A stretch of DNA of 64,000 nt from Cellvibrio zantedeschiae (GTDB lineage: Bacteria > Pseudomonadota > Gammaproteobacteria > Pseudomonadales > Cellvibrionaceae): NCBI RefSeq assembly GCF_014652535.1, contig NZ_BMYZ01000003.1:434001-498000 (forward strand), read 5' to 3'. This document shows positions 25,887 to 38,747 of the stretch, in pieces. How positions within the stretch are numbered: the stretch's first letter is position 1; every line of letters starts with the position of its first letter. The notes below the pieces were generated by a model that was given only the letters and a program-made list of their open reading frames with translations, was not told the DNA's origin and searched no databases. Both the position numbers and the translations under genes were made by a program.

Positions 25887-26522
25887 ATGACAATCACCAT
25901 TACAGCGTTTGAAAAATCACCCGACGGCGGCAAAGGTTTAGCGCGCGACACACGCGTGCGCTGGGCGCTTGAAGAAGTGGGCCAGCCATATCAGGTTCGC
26001 TATTTATCCTTTCAGGCAATGAAAGAACCCGCGCACCTTGCGCTGCAACCCTTTGGCCAAATCCCCACTTACGAAGAAGGCGATATTGCCCTGTTTGAAA
26101 CAGGAGCCATTGTTTTACACATCGCACAAACTTACGCAGGCTTACTGCCAAACGACAACACTCGAGCACGCTCCATCAGTTGGATGTTTGCAGCAGTCAA
26201 CACCATAGAGCCACCCATTCTGGAATTAGTAACCGCAAAAATTTTTGAGGGCGATAAGCCATGGGCTAACGAACGAATACCTTTAGTAGCAGAGCGCATT
26301 CGCAACCGCCTCACACAACTGTCCAATTACCTTGGCGATAACGAATGGCTGCAAGGCGCATTCAGCGCCGGCGATTTAATGATGGTATCCGTACTACTAA
26401 GATTAAGGCCATCGGCAATCCTAAATGAATTTCCAAACCTTGCAGCTTACGTCGCACGCGGCGAAGCTCGGCCCGCCTACCAGCGCGCTTTTGCTGCGCA
26501 ATATGCGGCGAATAATCCATAA
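25887..26522 (+). CDS. Glutathione S-transferase family protein
   Basis: This 211-residue cytosolic protein has an N-terminal thioredoxin-like domain (DTRVRWALEEVGQPYQVRYL, FGQIPTYEEGDIALFETGAI, where the cis-Pro and the Glu-Thr/Ser glutathione contacts lie) and an all-helical C-terminal domain (WLQGAFSAGDLMMVSVLLRL, with the N-capping Asp motif). The substrate is unknown. GAGAGGGAACCGAC precedes ATG 25887. It appears monocistronic, with no partner gene nearby. Confidence 0.88.
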   Translation: MTITITAFEKSPDGGKGLARDTRVRWALEEVGQPYQVRYLSFQAMKEPAHLALQPFGQIPTYEEGDIALFETGAIVLHIAQTYAGLLPNDNTRARSISWMFAAVNTIEPPILELVTAKIFEGDKPWANERIPLVAERIRNRLTQLSNYLGDNEWLQGAFSAGDLMMVSVLLRLRPSAILNEFPNLAAYVARGEARPAYQRAFAAQYAANNP

Positions 26523-26698
26523 AGCCGTTCATTTAAACTCGCAAAAAATCATTTTTATTTGCTAGACAATTTCGTTGGCTTTTGGACCTTAAATCCAGAC
26601 GAAACATTCCAAGCACAGGTATTATCCCGCATACAATGGATATGATCGAAATCTGAGACCAATAACGAAAAATAGAATTAGCTGGAGCGCTAAGAGAA

Positions 26699-27121
26699 AT
26701 GACGAATTTAATTACAATTTTATTAATACTGGTAAGCGTGGCATCAATTGTAATGTGGGGAATATTAGTTTGGTCTACGTATTGGCCGCAAGTCGAAGGG
26801 CTTCTTGAAAAAGCTGATTATCACGCGTTAGAAATAAATCGCAGAAAGCTTTTTAAATTGGATGTTCTATACAAATATGAGCTAAATGGAAAATCCTTCA
26901 AATCAAACACAATTTATATGTTTGGTGGGGCGCCTTGTAAAAGCGAAAATGAAGCTTCCGGTTTAATCAAAAGCTTTAATGAAAATTTAGTTATTACCTA
27001 TTGCCCCATGCTGCCCGCAATTTCCTGCATTCTGCTCAATAAGAAGCTAATGCTTTATTTACCAATAATGCCAATTCTTGCTATGTTGGTTTATCTGCTC
27101 GCTGCATTTCTCACTATCTAA
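26699..27121 (+). CDS. Membrane protein, DUF3592-like
   Basis: This 140-residue protein has N-terminal (about 4-26) and C-terminal (about 105-138) membrane helices with an extra-membrane strand-rich part between them that includes YKYELNGKSFKSNTIYMFGG, the typical DUF3592 core. The cysteine-proline turn YCPMLPAISCIL precedes the last helices. Function unknown. It lies 135 bp before the MORC-like ATPase gene and shares the A+T-rich character of that island, so it could be its left edge, but nothing ties it to the defence genes. Confidence 0.6.
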   Translation: MTNLITILLILVSVASIVMWGILVWSTYWPQVEGLLEKADYHALEINRRKLFKLDVLYKYELNGKSFKSNTIYMFGGAPCKSENEASGLIKSFNENLVITYCPMLPAISCILLNKKLMLYLPIMPILAMLVYLLAAFLTI

Positions 27122-27256
27122 CGAACTAGGAGCAAAATTACAGCGAGAGAGGATCTTCTAACTCTATATAAATGGACTCCGTGTAATAGCATGTAATATT
27201 TTAAATCTTCGGCTATAGTGGAAAATTGCGCCAATAGTAGTTTACAGGAATAATAT

Positions 27257-28738
27257 ATGGCTCGTGACTGCCTACACCCACCAAGTGCTGCTTGTCTTTC
27301 CGCTTCAATGAGAGATCTCGGATATTCTCTTGAAACTGCAATTGCAGATTTAATCGATAATAGTATTTCCGCTAATGCAGATAAAATCGACATCATTTGT
27401 GACATATCTGGAAATGATCCCGTTGTTGTGATTCTAGACAACGGAAAGGGAATGACGCATGTAGAACTGTTAAGTGCAATGCGTCATGGAACAATTAATC
27501 CACAGCAAAAACGCTCGCCTAAAGATCTCGGACGCTTTGGTTTAGGCCTAAAAACTGCCTCATTTTCCCAGTGTCGCTCTTTAACTGTTGTAAGCGCTAA
27601 AGAATCTTCGATTAATGGGGCTGAATGGAATCTTGATCGAATTGATAAAGCTGATGACTGGATTTTATCTATTCTCGACCAAACAGATATTAATTCATTA
27701 CCTTACGTTGAACGACTCACCAAACAAGGTACTGCTGTTATTTGGAGAGAGCTTGATCGATTATTTGAAGATGAATCAGGAAGTCGTCGCGATGAAATCG
27801 TCAATGAAAAACTGGAAGCAGTTAATAGGCATTTATCTCTCGTATTCCATAGATTTATTTCCGGGGAAGTAAAAGGTCAGCCGAAAATCTCCTTAACTAT
27901 TAATGGGCACTCGCTCAAAGCTTTTGATCCTTTTTGCAGAAAAAATCCCGCTACCCAATTATTGCCCGAAGAAATAATTCGTATTGGCGATGCAGAGGTT
28001 CGTATACAACCTTATGTTTTGCCGCATCATAGTCGGTTGTCTGCATCTGAATATGATTATTATCAAAGTCGTAGCGACTTCATTTCTAATCAAGGAGGTT
28101 ACGTTTATAGAAATGGGCGACTTATGGCATGGGGCGACTGGTTTAGATTGGTCCCTAAAGGTGAAGCAACTAAATTGGCAAGAGTGCGGATTGATTTTCC
28201 TAATAATCTAGATGAAGAGTGGACAATTGATATAAAAAAATCACGTGCTCGCCCTCCATTAATTGTACGCGAACGTCTTCGACAGATAATTACCAAGATT
28301 GTCAATCGAAGTGTGACAGTACATCGTGGTCGCGGACAGAAGCTTTTTCAAGAAGACCAAGCCCCAATGTGGGAACGATATGCTGATCATGGCGGCATAC
28401 GCTTCGCTATTAACAAACAACATCCTGTGATTGCAGCTCTGGAGTCAAAAATAGCACCAAAAGAAAGAGAATCACTTAAGGTTTTGCTTGATGCAATTGC
28501 TACCTCAGTACCATTAGAGATGATTTATTCCGATTATTCGACTAGCCCTCGAGAAATTAATAGACAAAAAATAGATGAGCATCTGGTTATAGAGAAGTTA
28601 AAAAAATTGTGGGAAACAATTTATAGTAGTGGCGCTGGCAATCCTGATGAGTTTATTCAGATAGTACTTTCAACACATCTTTTCGATAGTCAATTGGAAC
28701 TTGTAGAAAAATTTTTATTTGAGAAACTTTATGACTAA
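27257..28738 (+). CDS. MORC/MutL-like GHKL ATPase of a defence operon
   Basis: This 493-residue protein carries the GHKL ATPase (Bergerat) fold: N box ADLIDNSISANA (residues 30-41), G1 ILDNGKGMTH (59-68), and G2 GRFGLGLKTASFSQ (92-105), as in MutL, Hsp90 and MORC proteins. A second S5-like domain seems to follow (about 220-360), and there is no sign of the MutL C-terminal endonuclease. Prokaryotic MORC-type ATPases in restriction-like operons were described by comparative genomics (Iyer, Abhiman and Aravind). It probably clamps on DNA in an ATP-dependent way and coordinates the nuclease partners; that is inference. Its stop overlaps the Z1 gene start by 8 bp (ATGACTAA). Confidence 0.9.
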   Translation: MARDCLHPPSAACLSASMRDLGYSLETAIADLIDNSISANADKIDIICDISGNDPVVVILDNGKGMTHVELLSAMRHGTINPQQKRSPKDLGRFGLGLKTASFSQCRSLTVVSAKESSINGAEWNLDRIDKADDWILSILDQTDINSLPYVERLTKQGTAVIWRELDRLFEDESGSRRDEIVNEKLEAVNRHLSLVFHRFISGEVKGQPKISLTINGHSLKAFDPFCRKNPATQLLPEEIIRIGDAEVRIQPYVLPHHSRLSASEYDYYQSRSDFISNQGGYVYRNGRLMAWGDWFRLVPKGEATKLARVRIDFPNNLDEEWTIDIKKSRARPPLIVRERLRQIITKIVNRSVTVHRGRGQKLFQEDQAPMWERYADHGGIRFAINKQHPVIAALESKIAPKERESLKVLLDAIATSVPLEMIYSDYSTSPREINRQKIDEHLVIEKLKKLWETIYSSGAGNPDEFIQIVLSTHLFDSQLELVEKFLFEKLYD

Positions 28739-31403
28739 AACACAGCATTTCACCAATACGCTCATATCAGGTTTAGCAGCTAAATATAAAAATGAAATAC
28801 CGACAAAAGAACAAGTTAGAGAAACAGCAAAACAGCTCGCTGATCTTCTTAATTACACAGATGAGCTCACTAACATAATCACAGAAGTAATGATAGCGAT
28901 TGATACCCGTATGGGAGCCGGAGTTTCACTTATCGATGTAACAGCAAAACACGATGATCAATGGGTTCATAAGCGTGAAAACATCAAGTGGACTTACACC
29001 CATGCATATGAGCAATTTCTTCGCGAAGAAAGCTGGCCACCACAAATGGTTCAATCATTAAGCGATGTAACTAACCGTATTCTCGGGCATCTGCAAGACC
29101 CATCAAGTGAAGGTTCAACTTGGAGTCGACGCGGTCTTGTTATCGGCCATGTTCAGTCGGGTAAGACTGCGAATTACACAGGTTTAATAGCTAGAGCAGC
29201 GGATACAGGCTATAAGTTCATTATTGTTATCGCGGGCATTCATAATAACTTGCGCAAACAAACACAACAACGAATCGACGAAGCATTTATTGGCCGCTCA
29301 AGCGATCCCGATGATCGTCGCTATATTGGTGTAGGTCTTACATCTGACTATCCGCATCCCGCAACACTCACCAACGTTAACGAAGACTTCAATAAAAATA
29401 CCGCTGCGAAGAGTGGCTGGAAAATTAATAATCAAGTTAACCCAACAATTTTAATAATTAAGAAAAACGTAACAACGCTCACCGCTCTATATAAATGGCT
29501 AAAAGAGTTAAACGCAACCAATGATGGTCGTATCCGTGATATCCCTATGCTAATGATTGATGATGAAGCAGACAATGCATCAATCAATACAAATAAAGAA
29601 GATCTAGATCCGACCAAGACAAATGCAAAGATGAGGGAAATATTGAGTCTATTTGCCAAATCATGCTATGTAGGATATACCGCTACACCGTTCGCTAATA
29701 TCTTTATAAATCCCGATGCTTACGGTGAAGGTGTGAGTGAAGATCTATTTCCTCGTGACTTCATTTATTGTCTCGATGCACCAACAACTTATTTCGGTCC
29801 AGAAAAGGTCTTTCTCAATGAGACTACAAGCTCACGGATAGTGAGACCGATAGATGATTGTGAAGACCTAATTCCATACTCACACAAACGAGATGATCTT
29901 ATCTCTGAGCTTCCACAGAGCCTCTACCGAGCGCTAAATGAATTTATTATTGCTCGCGCAATTAGGAATCTCCGGGGGCAGGCCAATAAACATTGCTCAA
30001 TGATGATCAATGTTTCTCGATTTGTCCCGATTCAGAACGCAGTGCGAGACTTTCTAAGCCTCAGAGAAAAACTGATACGGCAAGCCGTCATTGCTAATTA
30101 TGCAATGGATGAGGGAATTTCTTCCAAAAACATGTATATGCAGGAATTAAAGCAAGTTTTTGAAAACGAGTATGCTAGTGTTGGATTTACTTGGCCTGAA
30201 GTAAAAGCTGCGCTTAACAGTGTCTTTGATAACCTTCATTTATATGTAATTAACAGTAAGAGCGATGAAATTCTTGATTTCAAACGTTATGAAAATGAGG
30301 GGGTTGGCTTAACTGCAATTGCAGTTGGCGGATTCAGCCTTTCGCGCGGATTGACAATTGAGGGCTTAACTATAAGTTACATGTATCGCAATACAAAAAT
30401 GTATGACTCATTAATGCAGATGGGGCGATGGTTTGGTTACAGACCTAGTTATGAAGATCTTTGTCGCGTCCATTTATCTTATGACTCTATTGAGTGGTAC
30501 TCACATATTGCTGATGCTGCTGAAGAACTTATCCAACAAGTTAGACAAATGAGAAGGGACAAACTTAGTCCGAAAGACTTTGGTTTATACGTTCGATCAC
30601 ATCCCGACACCTTACTGATTACAGCTGCAAACAAAATGCGGTTTGGTGAAAAAGTTACAGTAGAACAAAGCTACAGTGGAAGAATATGGGAAAGTCATAT
30701 TGTCTCAATTGATCCAGAGGTTAACGCCAAGAATTTCTCTTTGATTACTGAGCTTTGGCAAGGCAGATTTGGTGGCTGCAAGGAAGAATCTACAAAAAAA
30801 GGTCCAATTTATCGCGACGTAGCTATCGAGATACTAAATGAGTTTTTAGTTCGATTCGAATGTCATGCATCTATTTCATCCACGAAATCAGCCGTTAAAG
30901 ATTATCTCGACCGGGTTAAAGGAAAATATCCGCTAGCGGATGTTGTACTAATTTCTCCAGCACGTGGAACGCAAAGTTCGAAGCCTTTTGCGTTGAATAA
31001 CCAGGAGCGAGCGGTTGGCCCTAATCAGCCAAAAGGCAATGGATGGCATTTAAATAAAGGTAGAGTTGCTTCTCGTGGGGATGAGCAGCTAGGACTTAGC
31101 GACGATCAAATAGAGCAAGCAAGAAAGAAAGCTGCTGCTGGAAGCGAAGAAGAGCTTGATTGCACAATCGAAAAAATTGCCGTCTCAGATACTCACTATC
31201 GAATGATTCGAAATAAACCTCTTTTGATGATACATAGCCTTGCACCCAAGGGAGATATTGTACAAGGCCCAATTGCGGCTTTCGGAATTAGCTTTCCATA
31301 TGGAGATCAAAAAACAACTATCAATGTAGTAGTAAACAAAATATGGCTTCAACAAATGACGGGATATTCAGACAATCCTGACGAGGATGATCATGATGAT
31401 TAA
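28731..31403 (+). CDS. Z1-domain superfamily 2 ATPase/helicase-like protein
   Basis: This protein of about 890 residues is the motor-like component of the operon. Motif I is GHVQSGKT (about 139-146), motif II DDEADNAS (277-284), motif III-like GYTATPFANIFI. The Z1 region holds GGFSLSRGLTIEGLTISYMY and MQMGRWFGYRPSYEDLCRV, where the RWFGYR arginines are the presumed arginine finger region. ATG 28731 overlaps the MORC stop and gives an M-T-K start; a TTG at 28719 is less likely. Z1 proteins occur with MORC, PD-(D/E)XK and AIPR proteins in predicted R-M-like systems. It may translocate on or remodel DNA. Confidence 0.92.
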   Translation: MTKTQHFTNTLISGLAAKYKNEIPTKEQVRETAKQLADLLNYTDELTNIITEVMIAIDTRMGAGVSLIDVTAKHDDQWVHKRENIKWTYTHAYEQFLREESWPPQMVQSLSDVTNRILGHLQDPSSEGSTWSRRGLVIGHVQSGKTANYTGLIARAADTGYKFIIVIAGIHNNLRKQTQQRIDEAFIGRSSDPDDRRYIGVGLTSDYPHPATLTNVNEDFNKNTAAKSGWKINNQVNPTILIIKKNVTTLTALYKWLKELNATNDGRIRDIPMLMIDDEADNASINTNKEDLDPTKTNAKMREILSLFAKSCYVGYTATPFANIFINPDAYGEGVSEDLFPRDFIYCLDAPTTYFGPEKVFLNETTSSRIVRPIDDCEDLIPYSHKRDDLISELPQSLYRALNEFIIARAIRNLRGQANKHCSMMINVSRFVPIQNAVRDFLSLREKLIRQAVIANYAMDEGISSKNMYMQELKQVFENEYASVGFTWPEVKAALNSVFDNLHLYVINSKSDEILDFKRYENEGVGLTAIAVGGFSLSRGLTIEGLTISYMYRNTKMYDSLMQMGRWFGYRPSYEDLCRVHLSYDSIEWYSHIADAAEELIQQVRQMRRDKLSPKDFGLYVRSHPDTLLITAANKMRFGEKVTVEQSYSGRIWESHIVSIDPEVNAKNFSLITELWQGRFGGCKEESTKKGPIYRDVAIEILNEFLVRFECHASISSTKSAVKDYLDRVKGKYPLADVVLISPARGTQSSKPFALNNQERAVGPNQPKGNGWHLNKGRVASRGDEQLGLSDDQIEQARKKAAAGSEEELDCTIEKIAVSDTHYRMIRNKPLLMIHSLAPKGDIVQGPIAAFGISFPYGDQKTTINVVVNKIWLQQMTGYSDNPDEDDHDD

Positions 31404-32361
31404 TATCTCACCATGGGATGAAATCAATATTCCTGAAAAAGATTTTAATGTCCGTCAAATATCCGAAAGAACTGTTGCACCTTGCTATTGGGCTCGCGAC
31501 CCTAGAGGAAATTGCCTTTTTATAATTGAGCTCGAAGGCGATCATACGCTTCAATTTAGAAAGGATTTTATTACAGTAAATGGCATCAACATTGATCTTC
31601 GGTCAGGAGGGCATGAACAGCAGCGAATTATACTTTCTCTCGAAAAACAAGTTGATCGAGATATTTTTGAAGCACTTTGCAAAGCGCTTATTGTTTCTCT
31701 AAGGAATGCCACGGACTCTGCGTCCTCATTAGCCATATCACTTTCGCATCTTCGCCGCTGGAAGGCGTTTTTGGCGGGACACAGCCAGCAACTTTCAGTT
31801 GAGGAAGTACGTGGTTTATTTGCAGAAATTACTTTTTTATCAGAGTTACTTGATCAGGACATTGCAAGCAATGATGCAGTTGCCTCTTGGCTTGGTGCGG
31901 AGAGATCACATCATGATTTCATTTTTGGGAACACCAGTATTGAAGTTAAATCCATATCTGGTATTGAGCGAGGCGTGGTGTGTATATCATCTGAAGATCA
32001 GTTAGAATCGGTAAACGATTTTTTGTTTCTTCGTATATATAGGCTTAGCGCACAAACAAAGTCACCTGCAGCCAAATCTTTAAATGAGGCGATCAATATC
32101 ACATATATAAAACTTAAAGACGCTGAGGCAATAGATGCTTTTGATAAAAAACTAGCAGCTTATGGGTATGTACCAATACCACAATATGATCTTCCTAGAT
32201 TTGTGATTAGCGAGGTAAACACATATAAAATTGATAATGATTTTCCTCGTTTAATTCGCTCCCAGCTTCCGGCTGGAGTCACCAATGTTAGTTATTATTT
32301 AAAGCTGGAGAATATCGCATCACATAAGTGCGATGAGCGGTTGATATTTAAGGGCATCTAA
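31393..32361 (+). CDS. PD-(D/E)XK-motif protein (DUF4420-like)
   Basis: This protein of about 322 residues has a nuclease-type core: an early glutamate in VRGLFAEITFLSEL, then the Asp of SHHDFIFGN and IEVKS (E-x-K) with the usual strand spacing, the PD-(D/E)XK signature of restriction-like endonucleases. This matches the DUF4420 family found in MORC-Z1 operons. It probably supplies DNA cleavage. Three in-frame ATGs exist (31387, 31393, 31396); 31393 is chosen because GAGG at 31383-31386 is then six bases away. It overlaps the Z1 gene by 11 bp and its TAATG stop overlaps the AIPR start. Confidence 0.88.
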   Translation: MMINISPWDEINIPEKDFNVRQISERTVAPCYWARDPRGNCLFIIELEGDHTLQFRKDFITVNGINIDLRSGGHEQQRIILSLEKQVDRDIFEALCKALIVSLRNATDSASSLAISLSHLRRWKAFLAGHSQQLSVEEVRGLFAEITFLSELLDQDIASNDAVASWLGAERSHHDFIFGNTSIEVKSISGIERGVVCISSEDQLESVNDFLFLRIYRLSAQTKSPAAKSLNEAINITYIKLKDAEAIDAFDKKLAAYGYVPIPQYDLPRFVISEVNTYKIDNDFPRLIRSQLPAGVTNVSYYLKLENIASHKCDERLIFKGI

Positions 32362-34199
32362 TGGAACAGACAAAAGAAGAATTTTTTCACGATTTCCGTC
32401 AAGAATTACTTTCAAGTGCCGAGGCTAATGGAAGTTTTTTTCTTTCGGAATTTATGGAAAAAGTCGCAAATGAACTTATAGAAACTGGTTTTAGCGAGGG
32501 CTTTGAAGTTTGCCACTTTCGTGCACAACGTGGGATGCGCGTGGACGGTTACTGGTTTGACGATGAAGGAAATTTAGCTCTATTTATTGCTGATTTTGAT
32601 AATCGCGTAGAACTTACCTCACTAAGCAGAACCGAAGTTGCTGTTTTATTCAAACGCCTTATAAGCTTCCTCGAAGCAAGTACTAATAAAGGATTAGCGC
32701 AGAGTCTGGAAGTTACCTCTCCAGAATACGGACTTGCAAGACAGATTGCTGACAGAATAGATAGTATTTACAAAGTTAACTTATTTCTATTTTCTGAACG
32801 CTCTTTGAGCGAGAAAATTCAAGAGCTACCCAATGCCCTAGTTGCCGGTATTCCTGTAACTCACCATATATGGGACATATCACGAATACATAGGCAACAA
32901 AGCTCCAAAAATCATAAAGAAGCGTTAGATCTGGATTTCGTGCAGATGTTTGGCAAAGGTATCGCCTCACTTCCCGCTCATTTAACAACTCATAGCTATC
33001 AATCATATCTAATGGTAATGCCAGCAGATGTTCTAGCGGTGCTCTACGACAAATATGGTGCTCGTTTGTTAGAACAAAACGTTCGAACATTCTTGCAGGC
33101 GCGAGGTACTGTGAACAAAGGGATACGAGAAACGATTTTAAAAGAACCCTATATGTTTTTCGCTTACAACAACGGGATTACAGCTACCGCTCAAAGTATT
33201 GAGAAAAGCGTAACAGATTCCGGTCTAGTGATTACAAAAATTGTTGATCTTCAGATTGTTAATGGTGGTCAAACTACAGCTTCACTATTCCATACCAAGA
33301 AGCGAGACAAAGCGGATCTTTCACAGATATTTGTTCAAATGAAGCTATCCGTAATAGATAGCCAGCAAAGTGATGTTGTTGTACCAAAGATTTCAGAATA
33401 TGCAAACACGCAGAATAAAGTAAATGCAGCCGACTTTTTTTCAAATCATCCATTTCATGTTCGAATGGAGGGATTTTCCAGGCGTCTTTGGGCTCCGGCA
33501 AAATCTGGATCACAACGTGAAACTCGTTGGTTTTATGAACGGACTCGTGGTCAATATGCGGATCAGCAGTCAAAACTCAGTCTCGCTGAACAACGCCGCT
33601 TCAAGGCTGAACATCCAAAGCCTCAAATGTTTACTAAAACTGATCTAGCAAAATATGAGAATATCTGGGATGACCATCCAAAATGGGTAAATTTAGGGTC
33701 ACAAAAAAATTTCAAACAATATGCCGAGAGAATTGGCAGGGAGTGGGAAAAATCATCCGATTCATTTAATGAATTTTATTATAAGCGAGCGGTAGCACGA
33801 GCAATAATTTTTCGAAACACCGAACGAATCGTATCCAACCAAAATTGGTATAACGGAGGATACCGAGCAAATATCGTGGCTTATACACTGGCAATGCTTG
33901 GTGAAATTACTAAGCGTAAAAAAGAGTCTATCGATTATTTAAAAATTTGGAACGAACAAGAAATTGATGCTGCTCTAGAAAATGCCATATCAACTATCGC
34001 AGAAGCGGTAAATGGCATCATCATTAAGCCTCCTCATGGAATTTCAAATATTTCAGAATGGTGCAAGAGAGAGGCTTGCTGGAAGCAATTAACTGATTCT
34101 GCCGAGCTAATTACCAATAAAATATTACCTAAATTTTTTAGCCAGCTAGTTTCAACTGACAATATTTTAGAAAGAAGAAAAGCAGATTTAACTGCGTAA
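32361..34199 (+). CDS. AIPR (abortive phage infection-type) protein
   Basis: This 612-residue protein has the AIPR core FAYNNGITATA (about 267-277) and VDLQIVNGGQTTASLF (295-310), characteristic of the family named after abortive phage infection proteins. The N-terminus contains VDGYWFDDEGNLALFIADF, which resembles a degenerate PD-(D/E)XK strand arrangement without a clear catalytic lysine. It is the last gene of the four-gene overlapping operon, starting at the A of the preceding TAA. AIPR proteins are linked to phage resistance and to R-M-like contexts; the molecular action is not established. Confidence 0.9.
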   Translation: MEQTKEEFFHDFRQELLSSAEANGSFFLSEFMEKVANELIETGFSEGFEVCHFRAQRGMRVDGYWFDDEGNLALFIADFDNRVELTSLSRTEVAVLFKRLISFLEASTNKGLAQSLEVTSPEYGLARQIADRIDSIYKVNLFLFSERSLSEKIQELPNALVAGIPVTHHIWDISRIHRQQSSKNHKEALDLDFVQMFGKGIASLPAHLTTHSYQSYLMVMPADVLAVLYDKYGARLLEQNVRTFLQARGTVNKGIRETILKEPYMFFAYNNGITATAQSIEKSVTDSGLVITKIVDLQIVNGGQTTASLFHTKKRDKADLSQIFVQMKLSVIDSQQSDVVVPKISEYANTQNKVNAADFFSNHPFHVRMEGFSRRLWAPAKSGSQRETRWFYERTRGQYADQQSKLSLAEQRRFKAEHPKPQMFTKTDLAKYENIWDDHPKWVNLGSQKNFKQYAERIGREWEKSSDSFNEFYYKRAVARAIIFRNTERIVSNQNWYNGGYRANIVAYTLAMLGEITKRKKESIDYLKIWNEQEIDAALENAISTIAEAVNGIIIKPPHGISNISEWCKREACWKQLTDSAELITNKILPKFFSQLVSTDNILERRKADLTA

Positions 34200-34235
34200 A
34201 TAACATTTCCCTGAGCTTGACAAAATTAATATCCT

Positions 34236-35786
34236 TTACAATAAATCGTAAACTATTTCAGCCAACTTATTTGCTAAAAACGGCGGCACGGCGTTTCCTA
34301 CCTGAACATATTGTTGCGTGCGATTTCCTTCAAAAAAATAATTATCAGGAAATGTTTGGATACGTGCCGCTTCGCGAACAGTCAAGCTGCGACATTGAAG
34401 CGGATCATAATGAATAAAGTAGTGCCCATCTTTTGAAATATGGCTAGTTATTGTTGTCGCATATCTTCCTTTCGCTTGCACACGGAAACGGTCAGAAAAT
34501 TTTCCTGACGCCCAGTTTTTGTGTTTGGGAGCTAAAAATTTTGGAAATTCATGCGATTTAGGATTTGGGTTTTCACGGTTGGCGAAAGCTATGGCGAAAC
34601 TTGAACAGAAATAATAACGTTCCAAGTCTTCTACAATATGTCCGCGAGTTTCGTGATTTAAAACATACTTCAAATTTTCATCTTTGTACCAGTCTTTTAA
34701 CTCTGGTGGCACACTCTTTACAACAGAACGGTTAATTTGAATTGCTCTTAGGCCACGACTTTCCACTTTTAGATCTTGCGAAGAGTAAAGCGGAATTTTT
34801 TCGGCGAGTTCTTTACAGCCTTCTTTCTTAAGTTTAGATGATAGTTTTTTAGCGATTTCACCGACTATGTCGTACCATTTCTCATGGCTATCACCTTCTT
34901 TTGAGAGTCCACTTCTAAGAACTGGCAAATCGCCAATGATTTTTTCAATATTTACTTCATCCTTGGTGGCTAACTGCCCAGGAATTTTTTTAATATCTTC
35001 TCTGACACCTAAAAGAATTACTCTGTGCCTGGCTTGAGGAATTCCGTAGTCTTCCGCACGGATAATAAAATCAGAATTGTCCTCATAGGTGGGATCAGTA
35101 GAATCAGCTGCTGCTTTAACAAAAGAATAAATTTTATATCGATTTCCAGTTTTGTTCCCCACGGATTTCCCGGGGCACTTTAAATCATTCAATATTTTTG
35201 GAAATATCTTTTCGCCATCCACCGTTGATGAAAGAATACCTTTAACGTTTTCCATTACAAAAACTTCAGGATTCACTAATGAAAGAATGCTTAAGTATTC
35301 TTTATACAGAAAATGTTTAGGATCATTTTTGGCTTCATAACCAACAATCCCCATATTTCTGGCACGGCCTACAAGCGAATAAGCTTGACATGGTGGTCCT
35401 CCAATGACGATTGTTTTACCTTTGTGATTTTTTAGAGCATTTTCTATTTGCTCATAAATATATTTATTATCTTCACCTAAAGCGCGCGGCCCATGAAGAG
35501 TTTCTTCTTGCGCGGCTTTAGCTTCCTTTGGATAGGCTTCAAATAATTCTTCGCGTGAAATTTTTCCACTTACATACTGATAGTATTCATGAGGGGCTTG
35601 CCCATCAGGAAACTTGCGAAAGAAAGATCGTAGCTGTAGTGTTTTGTGAGCACTGGCTTCCTTTTCAACAGATATAGCAATAGAAAATGGATGCTTCTCG
35701 GTTTTTTTATCTTTGTATGCAGAAAAGCCTTCTCCGAGCCCGCCCGGACCTGCGAAAAGATCAATTATTTTGATTTGAGTTGACAT
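34236..35786 (-). CDS. DNA (cytosine-5-)-methyltransferase
   Basis: This 516-residue enzyme would methylate cytosine at C5 in a specific DNA sequence using S-adenosylmethionine. Motif I is IIDLFAGPGGLGEGF (residues 7-21), motif IV GGPPCQAYS with catalytic C133, motif VI ENV (179-181), motif VIII ARHRVILLG and motif X VQVGNAVPPFLANKLAE. The spacer between motifs I and IV is long. It is convergent with the AIPR gene (36 bp apart) and divergent from the Vsr gene, an arrangement in which it probably protects self DNA from the neighbouring nuclease operon. The recognition sequence cannot be told from the protein. Confidence 0.95.
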   Translation of the reverse strand: MSTQIKIIDLFAGPGGLGEGFSAYKDKKTEKHPFSIAISVEKEASAHKTLQLRSFFRKFPDGQAPHEYYQYVSGKISREELFEAYPKEAKAAQEETLHGPRALGEDNKYIYEQIENALKNHKGKTIVIGGPPCQAYSLVGRARNMGIVGYEAKNDPKHFLYKEYLSILSLVNPEVFVMENVKGILSSTVDGEKIFPKILNDLKCPGKSVGNKTGNRYKIYSFVKAAADSTDPTYEDNSDFIIRAEDYGIPQARHRVILLGVREDIKKIPGQLATKDEVNIEKIIGDLPVLRSGLSKEGDSHEKWYDIVGEIAKKLSSKLKKEGCKELAEKIPLYSSQDLKVESRGLRAIQINRSVVKSVPPELKDWYKDENLKYVLNHETRGHIVEDLERYYFCSSFAIAFANRENPNPKSHEFPKFLAPKHKNWASGKFSDRFRVQAKGRYATTITSHISKDGHYFIHYDPLQCRSLTVREAARIQTFPDNYFFEGNRTQQYVQVGNAVPPFLANKLAEIVYDLL

Positions 35787-35911
35787 TATAAAAGTAGAAT
35801 ATAATTGAAAGGGTGCAGGATAACAGGATTTCGATCTTTTTCCAGGGACGGGCGGCTTATAAATGTAGGCCTTTTTACGAAAATATCTTACTTAACCACA
35901 AGATTGTGACT

Positions 35912-36364
35912 ATGGACATAGTAGATAAATCCAAAAGATCTTCAATGATGGCTGGTATCAAAAATAAAGATACCAAAGGCGAGCTATTAATTCGTAGAGG
36001 CTTATATAAACTTGGCTTCCGTTATCAATTGCACCGAAAGGATTTACCAGGAAGGCCAGATTTAGTTTTTCCAAAATTTAATTCTGTAATTTTTGTTAAT
36101 GGGTGCTTTTGGCATGTCCATAATTGTCATTTATTCAAGTGGCCTTCCAGTAGGCCAGAGTTTTGGAAAGAAAAAATAAACTCCAATAAAATCCGCGATG
36201 AAGTTAACCTTGAAAAGCTTACGAAGCTTGGTTGGAAAGTATTAGTAATTTGGGAGTGCGCTTTAAAAGGGAAAACACGTCGAAATTTAGATGAAGTGAT
36301 TCATACAGCGGCTAACTGGATTCAATATGATTCACAAAACGCTGAAATTGAGGGTAAGAAGTAA
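35912..36364 (+). CDS. vsr: Very short patch repair endonuclease (Vsr)
   Basis: This protein of about 150 residues nicks next to T:G mismatches that arise when 5-methylcytosine deaminates, so it protects genomes carrying a Dcm-type methylase. It begins MDIVDKSKRSSMMAGIKNKD as the family does; GRPDLVF carries the catalytic Asp, and FVNGCFWHVHNCHLF the metal- and zinc-site His/Cys residues and the intercalating aromatic; WKVLVIWECAL is also conserved. ATG 35912 is chosen over a longer open frame from 35813 by family alignment. It is divergent from the adjacent C5-methyltransferase, its expected partner. Confidence 0.95.
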   Translation: MDIVDKSKRSSMMAGIKNKDTKGELLIRRGLYKLGFRYQLHRKDLPGRPDLVFPKFNSVIFVNGCFWHVHNCHLFKWPSSRPEFWKEKINSNKIRDEVNLEKLTKLGWKVLVIWECALKGKTRRNLDEVIHTAANWIQYDSQNAEIEGKK

Positions 36365-36582
36365 CGCTGGATTACTCACATTGTTCGCCTTTCACGTCAA
36401 CCTCTGGTTGTTCAAAGTACCCGGTACTTTAGTCTCGCTTTCGCGAAAATGGCGACTCCCTAATTTTTAGGCTTGAAGTTATAATCAAGATACTCGGGTC
36501 GATTAAAAAATAATAATTCATTAACCACACCATCCAGCTCTAGAAAACATCAATAACAGTAAAACTTTAAAAAGGATTAATA

Positions 36583-38151
36583 ATGAAAAAAATTGCTTTA
36601 GGTCTATTTATAACACTTATGCTGCTGGGTTGCGCAACCGCGCCCGTAACGCAGGATGCAAATCTTCTTGCTAAAACCCAAGGTTATGTATTTGCTTATT
36701 TCCCCAAAACTGGTGCTGGTAATCAATTAACGGTTGCGCGTGTTGGTACTAAAGAGACTTACACTCTTTTGTCGCGCTCTGAGGCAAATGGTTGGGGGCG
36801 TTGGTTGCCGCCGGGTGAATATAAAATAAGTCAGTGGGGCACCACTCCATGGGGCGAGTATCAAACATTTACTGTTAAGGTCGGCCAAGTCACTGATTTG
36901 GGTAGCCTCATCCCTATGTCCTTAGGTGGTTATCAATATGTGATATTGCCGGTTAAGCTCAAAGAAACTGAAACGGCTGTACAAGCACCGTTACGTGAAT
37001 TTTCTGCGCAACTCGCAACATCGGAGCCGATTAGTTGGGCGCCGCAAACAGTTCCTCCAATTTTGAAAGAAGTTGCGCCTTCCACCGGGCTTGGATTAAT
37101 TGTCGACATCATGAATGAGTACCAACGCAAGGTCGTTAAACCTTCGCTAAATAAACAATTGCTTGCTACAAAAAATCCACAGGATTTTTTCAAAATAGCC
37201 AAAAGCGGTTCCGCACCATCAACTGATGAAACACCAATAGACGCAAAAGGAAATTTATACTTCGGCGCTGATTTTGGACAAGTAAGAGTTAGAAGCTCTT
37301 CGGGTGTTTGGTCCAGCCTGGATACAGCGAGCCTTTACCCTGTTACGGCGGTGGAAGTGTGCGGAAATAATTTAGTGGCAGGCTATGCCAATGGCATTTT
37401 AAAAATGTCTCGCGATGGCGGCGCAACCTGGGTGCAAGTAAAAGATTTTGGCAGCGCGGAATCTGTTTTGGATATTGATTGCCTTAAAGAGCGCAACATT
37501 GTCATTACCGGGCAATATGCAGAAAGCCCCTGGGCGTTTAAGCCACTGAAGAATGTGCGTTTGTATAGTGGCACGCAAGCTGGTCTTAATGACCTCACGC
37601 AACTTTATAATCACGATATTCCCGCTTCGCAACAGGGCGGCATTTTGCAAATCCGTGGCGAACAGTTGCAAGACAAGTATGTGTTTATAGTTCCTGTGAG
37701 TTTGTTTAGTCTTGATCTTAAAACCAATCAAATAACGGATATTTCCAAAGAGAAAAAAGTCAACGGATTCCACGTTACGCCGAACTCGCAAATCATCACC
37801 GCTTGGCTTGCAGCCGGTGCTTTCTCTGATACCTACATATCCACCAATGCAGGCCAAAGCTGGAAAGAAATAGATTCACCGTCATTGCAGATCAACGACA
37901 TTATTTTTGACAGTGAAACAAAAGGTATAGCTACGCGCATAAGCCCCGGTATGTTTACGGCGACGCCGGAGTTTAACAATTATGATGCTGTGAAAAATAA
38001 ATGGGTTAAAGACTACGATGGGTTAACCAGCTGCAACGTGCTTTTACATAACGAAAAAAATAAAGTCCAATTCTGTGTTGCACCAGGCGGCAATATTTTT
38101 AGTTACGATAAAGCTAACAAAAAATGGCAAGCTGAATTTATTGTTGATTAA
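36583..38151 (+). CDS. Lipoprotein with Asp-box (BNR) beta-propeller-like repeats
   Basis: This 522-residue protein has a lipoprotein signal peptide (MKKIALGLFITLMLLGC, lipobox LLGC). Residues 30-130 form a strand-rich domain (GYVFAYFPKTG, YTLLSRSEANGWGRWLPPGE). The second half contains Asp-box repeats (MSRDGGATWVQV and STNAGQSWKEI), typical of sialidase- or photosystem-stability-type beta-propellers. Binding partner and function are unknown. AAAAAGGA is the ribosome binding site. A terminator hairpin follows directly, and two further exported proteins are encoded downstream on the same strand. Confidence 0.8.
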   Translation: MKKIALGLFITLMLLGCATAPVTQDANLLAKTQGYVFAYFPKTGAGNQLTVARVGTKETYTLLSRSEANGWGRWLPPGEYKISQWGTTPWGEYQTFTVKVGQVTDLGSLIPMSLGGYQYVILPVKLKETETAVQAPLREFSAQLATSEPISWAPQTVPPILKEVAPSTGLGLIVDIMNEYQRKVVKPSLNKQLLATKNPQDFFKIAKSGSAPSTDETPIDAKGNLYFGADFGQVRVRSSSGVWSSLDTASLYPVTAVEVCGNNLVAGYANGILKMSRDGGATWVQVKDFGSAESVLDIDCLKERNIVITGQYAESPWAFKPLKNVRLYSGTQAGLNDLTQLYNHDIPASQQGGILQIRGEQLQDKYVFIVPVSLFSLDLKTNQITDISKEKKVNGFHVTPNSQIITAWLAAGAFSDTYISTNAGQSWKEIDSPSLQINDIIFDSETKGIATRISPGMFTATPEFNNYDAVKNKWVKDYDGLTSCNVLLHNEKNKVQFCVAPGGNIFSYDKANKKWQAEFIVD

Positions 38152-38165
38152 CATCTAAAGAAATG

Positions 38166-38191
38166 ACTGGGCAGCGATGCCCAGTTTTGTT
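38166..38191 (+). terminator. Hairpin terminator after the Asp-box lipoprotein gene
   Basis: ACTGGGC (38166-38172) pairs with GCCCAGT (38179-38185) around AGCGAT and is followed by TTTGTT. It lies 14 bp after the stop and 17 bp before the next gene start, so partial read-through is possible. Confidence 0.75.
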
Positions 38192-38207
38192 AATAAGGAC
38201 TAATAAA

Positions 38208-38747
38208 ATGAAAACGCTAAAGTCTTGCTTTGGTTTGATGCCTCTAATAGCTTTGTCAGCCTGTGGGGTTAATCCAGAAAAATTAAATGCACCGGTAACA
38301 GCTTCAAGCATTTATTTGGATGCGGATAGGGAAGCCAAAGAAACCATTCCAGGCGCTGTTACAACATACACCTTACGCAAAGGTATTTATGAATCCGCCA
38401 AGGAAGATGCAAAAGGTACATATTACTTGGGGCCTGAAAGTTGCTTCATGGTTAAAATTGATGTAGCTGATGCATTTCACCGGACTACAACTAACTGTGG
38501 CATTTTTGTTCCCAGTAACGCTAATCAGCCAGCCGTTATATTTACTGTAGTCGGGACGCAAAAAGTGGAGAAGCTTTCCAAACAAGCGGACCAAAAAAAT
38601 AATGCAACAGCTAATATTGGCACAAGCCCAATTGCAATGGCAGCCACCAACGCCGCCATTAAAATGGAGTTAGGCCAGTACGAATTAAGAATTCGAAAAG
38701 ATGATCCATTGGCTAAAGATTTACGATCCTTGGTCAAGCAAAAATAA
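38208..38747 (+). CDS. Small lipoprotein, paralogous to the next gene
   Basis: This protein of about 179 residues begins MKTLKSCFGLMPLIALSACG, a lipoprotein signal with lipobox LSAC. ATG 38208 is preferred over an in-frame ATG at 38163 because AAGGAC lies upstream and the signal starts there; the longer frame would run through the terminator hairpin. The mature part has TTYTLRKGIYESAKEDAKGTYYLG and NCGIFVPSN, shared in pattern with the following gene product (TTYVLQ... and DCGIFLPKD). No known family recognised. Two conserved Cys (one before MVKID, one in NCGIF) may pair. Confidence 0.7.
   Translation: MKTLKSCFGLMPLIALSACGVNPEKLNAPVTASSIYLDADREAKETIPGAVTTYTLRKGIYESAKEDAKGTYYLGPESCFMVKIDVADAFHRTTTNCGIFVPSNANQPAVIFTVVGTQKVEKLSKQADQKNNATANIGTSPIAMAATNAAIKMELGQYELRIRKDDPLAKDLRSLVKQK

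Follow-up and report, generated by a model that had tools for sequence, protein, structure and literature searches.

Positions 27257 to 36364 of the window, a 64,000-nucleotide stretch of the Cellvibrio zantedeschiae genome (contig NZ_BMYZ01000003.1, 434,001 to 498,000), encode homologues of MzaB, MzaC, MzaD and MzaE of the MZA defence system, flanked by a C5-cytosine methyltransferase and a Vsr endonuclease. We consider it fairly probable that the locus is a methylation-guarded restriction system in which Vsr repairs deaminated 5-methylcytosine (5mC), with a recognition site that is probably CCWGG. The methylase would mark host DNA with 5mC, guarding it against MzaBCDE, which would restrict DNA without the mark, with MzaD as the cutter; Vsr would repair the deaminated 5mC arising from this mark. 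Judging by sequence comparison, methylase and Vsr are a cassette with a history separate from that of MzaB-C-D-E and do not belong to the operon as a fixed component. Re-analysis confirmed the layout of four effector genes with flanking methylase and Vsr genes. Ten proteins, from 25887 to 38747, were scanned with Pfam, PADLOC and NCBIfam, and the features of the locus are as follows.

27257..28738, plus strand: MzaB-like GHKL ATPase, probably of MORC type, 493 aa (Pfam HATPase_c_3, 6.5e-33; PADLOC MzaB, 3.5e-92)
28731..31403, plus strand: MzaC homologue (PADLOC, 1.5e-132)
29145..29168, plus strand: Walker A motif of MzaC, GHVQSGKT, residues 143-150 counted from the TTG at 28719 (alignment)
31393..32361, plus strand: MzaD-like DUF4420 PD-(D/E)XK nuclease (Pfam DUF4420, 1.9e-62; PADLOC MzaD, 2.4e-21)
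32361..34199, plus strand: MzaE-like AIPR protein, 612 aa (Pfam AIPR, 5.7e-106, and AIPR_N, 1.5e-42; PADLOC MzaE, 1.4e-82)
34236..35786, minus strand: C5-cytosine methyltransferase, DrmMII-like, 516 aa (Pfam DNA_methylase, 3.3e-44; top PADLOC model DrmMII, 4.5e-99)
35787..35911, no strand: gap of 125 bp separating the starts of the divergent methylase and Vsr genes, where both promoters are presumed to lie (from gene coordinates only)
35912..36364, plus strand: Vsr mismatch (very short patch repair) endonuclease, 150 aa (Pfam Vsr, 2.4e-29)

A methylase and Vsr cassette beside different effectors

The composition of the locus is conserved among its relatives. Co-occurrence was counted in 49 loci with at least 6 kb on each side of MzaC, drawn from the best 80 of at least 576 loci confirmed by MzaC. 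The genes for B, C, D and E are contiguous in 48 of them, a C5-methylase (any open reading frame (ORF) of the locus matching the C5-methylase profile at E<=1e-5) is nearby in all 49, and Vsr is nearby in 44, with none detected in the other five. Where the window-type methylase is missing from an MZA locus, another C5-methylase stands in its place. The initial annotation had described a six-gene island of conserved composition resembling a restriction-modification (R-M) system and had proposed looking for the four-gene order elsewhere; both the island and the order are borne out by these counts, and the case named there as refuting, four genes that never occur together, does not apply. An idea that MZA drops its own methylase in Dcm-bearing hosts was unsupported, as the window-type methylase and Vsr were each present in nine of ten G327-family loci; this test is indirect, the 70%-identical dcm-like stretch having been seen in G327 itself.

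The constant presence of a methylase also bears on the proposal that the module targets phage DNA carrying methylation or another modification, with the methylase serving a different purpose. Such behaviour is known from GrwAB, but a linked host C5-methylase in every locus would be self-destructive unless the attack were specific for another modification, and we regard this explanation as very improbable.

A DNA search of 57 genomes of the genus, including that of the window, gave matches in 11. In these, window-type methylases adjoin the DISARM genes DrmA/DrmB (G013, L020), a double-GHKL protein of 745 aa and its 369-aa partner (G003, L022), a GHKL protein of 637 aa that matches a type-II-nuclease profile (G020, L023), a diverged MZA (G001, L021) and, in G012, a close MZA that is split. 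At the loci L024-L027 of other congeners only the Vsr is related, and the methylase is different. Outside the genus, two neighbourhoods match candidate genes of PADLOC's M33, one on a 3.8-kb contig (L123) M33B and M33C, the other (L124) M33A only.

Sequence identities separate the pair from the effectors. The Vsr-methylase blocks of L020 (DISARM) and L021 (MZA) share 91% identity over 2392 bp, a match that extends to within ~30 bp of the 3' ends of both genes; in the flanks, two stretches are 72% and 76% identical. The window and L021 share 82% identity in the methylase and 76% in Vsr, but 40% in MzaC and 43% in MzaE, while the window and L032 share 74% in MzaC and 77% in MzaE, but 46% in the methylase and 44% in Vsr. 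Across the 70 loci with MzaC, MzaE, methylase and Vsr, identities correlate at 0.89 for MzaC and MzaE compared with 0.45 for MzaC and the methylase.

The trees place the window differently. The methylase tree has 71 rows, the 66 MZA ones including loci truncated at contig ends, and was built by a quick method, with letter-composition warnings for the window among others; it joins the window to L021 and L020 with a support of 99. In the MzaC tree (65 rows, quick method, simple model, long-branch warnings), it groups with G012, L032, L040, L041, L042, L044 and L043 with a support of 100, the seven rows left without L043 having just 59%. Forcing the group without L043 into one clade of the methylase tree was rejected (approximately unbiased (AU) test, p 2.3e-8), for a clade picked after the identities had been seen. 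The initial annotation had counted methylase and Vsr as part of a complete island; both are present, but as a separately inherited cassette. That the same marking-and-repair pair lies beside different defence machines suggests a shared self-mark.

Co-variation was tested in 55 loci after removal of shared descent, the effector proteins being compared with the methylase, with Vsr and with the presumed target-recognition region of the methylase. The methylase and Vsr themselves remain correlated in this analysis (partial r 0.33, p 0.002). Vsr has also to be considered as part of the attack, a nickase working with the MutL-like MzaB rather than a repair enzyme. Iyer et al. 2008 drew a parallel to MutL, Vsr and helicase (PMC2292703), and a preprint gives Vsr-type domains as the nuclease domains of YprA-type defence helicases. 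Vsr, however, follows the methylase rather than B-C-D-E, stays beside it with a DISARM or M33 effector, has close relatives adjoining EcoRII and goes undetected in five of the 49 MZA loci, so that a role in attack seems improbable to us.

Two details of the congeners stand apart from this comparison. In G012, the MZA is broken inside mzaD and its two parts lie ~250 kb apart (L018 7854-7960, L019 12597-12640); similar insertion-sequence-like ends on both edges and a run of N beside one indicate either an insertion combined with a rearrangement or an error of scaffolding. In G020, a 43-aa Vsr match (L023 1742-1870) lies beside the methylase and the GHKL gene, and it is the only Vsr match in that stretch, a full Vsr not being found.

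The recognition site

The recognition site of the window methylase is probably CCWGG, as judged from its exchange partners only. Three lines lead toward this site, none of them conclusive. Three full MZA loci, L065, L067 and L077, carry methylases with 44, 53 and 39% identity to the Dcm of E. coli, and that of L067 contains the Dcm stretch TLSARYYKDGxEIL. L082, a locus with a window-type methylase, has B, C, D and E proteins that match their L067 counterparts at 77, 79, 76 and 70% identity; if the two modules share one site, window-type and Dcm-type methylases would protect the same site. The Vsr proteins of L024 and L025, 79% and 71% identical to the window Vsr, adjoin EcoRII-domain nucleases, and EcoRII recognises CCWGG (PMC3091744). 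The L020 methylase, 82% identical to that of the window, adjoins DISARM genes, and DISARM modifies CCWGG according to a review. In addition, KDG precedes motif IX in every one of 69 window-type methylases and in 8 of the 22 others that could be scored, including the Dcm-type methylases of L024-L027 and L067; this count excludes 7 of 29 non-family methylase ORFs without a scorable motif IX, and its strict pattern misses SITAHIAKDG in L068 and L095.

Several results weigh against a CCWGG-guarded MZA restriction system. The methylases of L065, L067 and L077 remain below the NCBIfam Dcm cut-off (325, 452 and 224 of 710 bits), and the window methylase shares just 26% identity with Dcm across 163 aa. 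L026 and L027 combine a Dcm-type methylase with Vsr, and no EcoRII gene was found among their scanned neighbours. Vsr does not act at CCWGG in every case, as degenerate motifs are described in Neisseria and a Vsr-like protein lies beside YGCCGGCR methylation in Caulobacter (PMC12907096). Five MZA loci of Firmicutes (L114-L118) have other C5-methylases with KSMWIHP before motif IX and no KDG; one site for all MZA is hence not expected, and these methylases may have a different one. All four effector proteins fall short of their NCBIfam MZA equivalog cut-offs, with 332.8 of 850 bits for MzaB, 507.3 of 1500 for MzaC, 119.6 of 420 for MzaD and 361.6 of 1050 for MzaE, and the window MZA is therefore a distant relative, not an equivalog. 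Finally, none of the effector subunits shows convincing co-variation with the methylase beyond shared descent (whole MzaB, MzaD and MzaE give partial Mantel p 0.17-0.75), so that no specificity subunit was identified. The C-terminal part of MzaD was considered as a site reader; its p of 0.026 with the methylase is the sole one of 24 tests below 0.05, and we do not claim this role.

The lack of co-variation and the separate history of methylase and Vsr would both suit a different arrangement, in which MzaB-C-D-E are a phage sensor or abortive system blind to DNA methylation and the pair is an orphan R-M remnant clustering in defence islands. AIPR proteins have indeed been termed abortive-infection proteins (PMC3506569). 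Chance clustering would, however, not be expected to explain how constantly methylase and Vsr accompany the module, or the substitute C5-methylase where the usual one is missing, and we consider this arrangement unlikely. The open-licence papers searched give no recognition site, mechanism or trigger for MZA.

The proteins of the module

MzaB, MzaC, MzaD and MzaE homologues are encoded in one operon with the MZA gene order kept, as seen from the PADLOC matches and the gene overlaps. The profile searches suggested in the initial annotation gave matches for all six proteins and also the MzaB-C-D-E identity, which it had missed. Its suggestion of a recent transfer holds only in part: the locus has a foreign composition, but the B, C and E of a congener reach 88-92% identity, and the module is thus not newly arrived in the genus.

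Catalytic motifs are intact in both the methylase (PCQ/ENV/QxRxR, invariant in 21 of 21 aligned sequences) and the MzaD nuclease (E-D-ExK). The latter motif, E147-D177-E186xK188 as numbered from 31387, is invariant in all nine aligned sequences; MzaD comprises 324 aa from this position and 322 aa from the ATG at 31393. The GHKL motifs DN, DxGxGM and GRxGLGxKT of MzaB are invariant (8/8 aligned), its family profile has MORC2 as the top match in the PDB (1.1e-9), and its stretch GGYVYRNGRLM fits the MORC S5 motif GhXhhpXXRhl by eye at 10 of 11 places, the second being G and not hydrophobic. In MzaC, the Walker A, DDExD and QMGRWFGYR motifs are invariant in nine of nine aligned relatives. Vsr residues E25, D51, C66, W68, H69, W86 and D97 are invariant in 22 sequences chosen from 75 listed ones and the window. 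The window Vsr is 40% identical to that of E. coli over 148 aa and, scanned from 35909, exceeds the NCBIfam vsr cut-off (133.7 against 97.85 bits).

For MzaE, residues Q298, N301, G302 and Q304 of the core are present in all 83 aligned sequences, while in the N-terminal domain D62 is found in 74 and D78 in 70 of them, with no recognisable (D/E)xK in this alignment. An AlphaFold2 model from the 83 sequences (predicted local distance difference test (pLDDT) 87.6, predicted template modelling score (pTM) 0.56) replaced a first one from 8 sequences (pTM 0.38). A Foldseek search of this model against the PDB gave 224 matches, none at E<=0.001, with a Pyrococcus repair endonuclease (E 0.3), Hsp33 (E 0.39) and pNOB8-like ParB N-domains (E 0.65-1.0) in the upper rows. 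As unrelated folds such as Hsp33 rank equally, the likeness to nuclease and ParB is a lead only. Sequence-profile searches of the PDB yielded no match for MzaC at E<=0.1, none for MzaD at E<=1, and just two kinase chains (E ~0.7) for MzaE. AIPR has been linked to DndB and assigned an N-terminal HEPN domain (PMC3506569).

We claim no promoter for the gap between methylase and Vsr, because a scan of 26500-36800 gave 12 sites, fewer than the mean of 27.8 in shuffles. Directly upstream of mzaB, a 140-aa ORF (26699-27121) with membrane-like stretches has no Pfam, PADLOC or NCBIfam match. The stretch from glmS to a HAD-phosphatase (window 19336-41180; L120; L121; L028) looks variable in the genus, holding MZA in the window, a kinase among other genes in G020, and a weak AIPR-like match ~2.6 kb past glmS in G005; it may be a defence hotspot.

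Relation to known systems and meaning

The MZA system, mzaABCDE, reportedly goes back to Gao et al. 2020. The window shares with it the homologues of MzaB-C-D-E and their order, but lacks scores at the NCBIfam cut-offs and MzaA; no MzaA sigma-70-like factor or sigma domain was found among the ten window proteins with Pfam, PADLOC or NCBIfam. Methylase and Vsr are also adjacent in a near-canonical MZA with MzaA. Miller et al. 2022 call mzaABCDE validated, present the operon type as its relative and find mzaA in just a few type II systems (PMC9523054). In the parts of that paper considered, DNA-repair endonucleases are named with type I and not with the candidate type II, and no methylase exchange is described. 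The remark of the initial annotation that DNA sensing and trigger are little tested is accordingly right only in part, the effectors being homologues of a named system called validated there.

That comparative genomics had foreseen the composition holds true: Iyer et al. 2008 described the operon type as Type-3 MORC operons, with cytosine methylases and VSR frequent around them (PMC2292703). Common to these and the window are a probable MORC protein, a distinct SFII helicase with DThhQXuRhFG and an E-D-ExK nuclease; the window differs from the published motifs in DSLMQMGRWFG (S for T) and in the G at the second place of the S5-like stretch. The same paper proposes DNA looping, and MORC displaced by paraMORC genes; an exchange of methylase and Vsr is absent from the parts examined.

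In CglI/NgoAVII, the nuclease consists of PLD and a B3 recognition domain, and none of the three genes is MORC or AIPR (PMC4267653); Pfam detects no such PLD-B3 domain among the ten window proteins. DISARM is linked to the window through the congener's methylase, while PADLOC finds neither DrmA nor DrmB among these proteins. EcoRII-type R-M systems with Vsr, for example in phage KL3, combine methylase, Vsr and effector in one module as the window does, but their effector is one EcoRII-type nuclease, unlike the four genes here (PMC3091744).

A broader proposal, which we advance tentatively and at somewhat less than even chances, is that C5-methylase and Vsr form an independent cassette for self-code and repair, its site very likely being CCWGG, with which mechanistically unrelated effectors (MZA, DISARM, EcoRII, GHKL restriction-like and M33) are combined and exchanged. 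MZA would then be a CCWGG-reading restriction machine, and the one mark an interchangeable password shared by several defence systems. Among the open-licence papers searched we found no report of an exchange of methylase and Vsr between MZA, DISARM and others. If true, an exchangeable cassette would explain the presence of a DNA-repair enzyme in defence islands, and the methylome of a cell would predict which unrelated effectors it can take up unharmed. If the self-mark of MZA is CCWGG, laboratory E. coli, whose Dcm makes this mark, would allow an immediate test.
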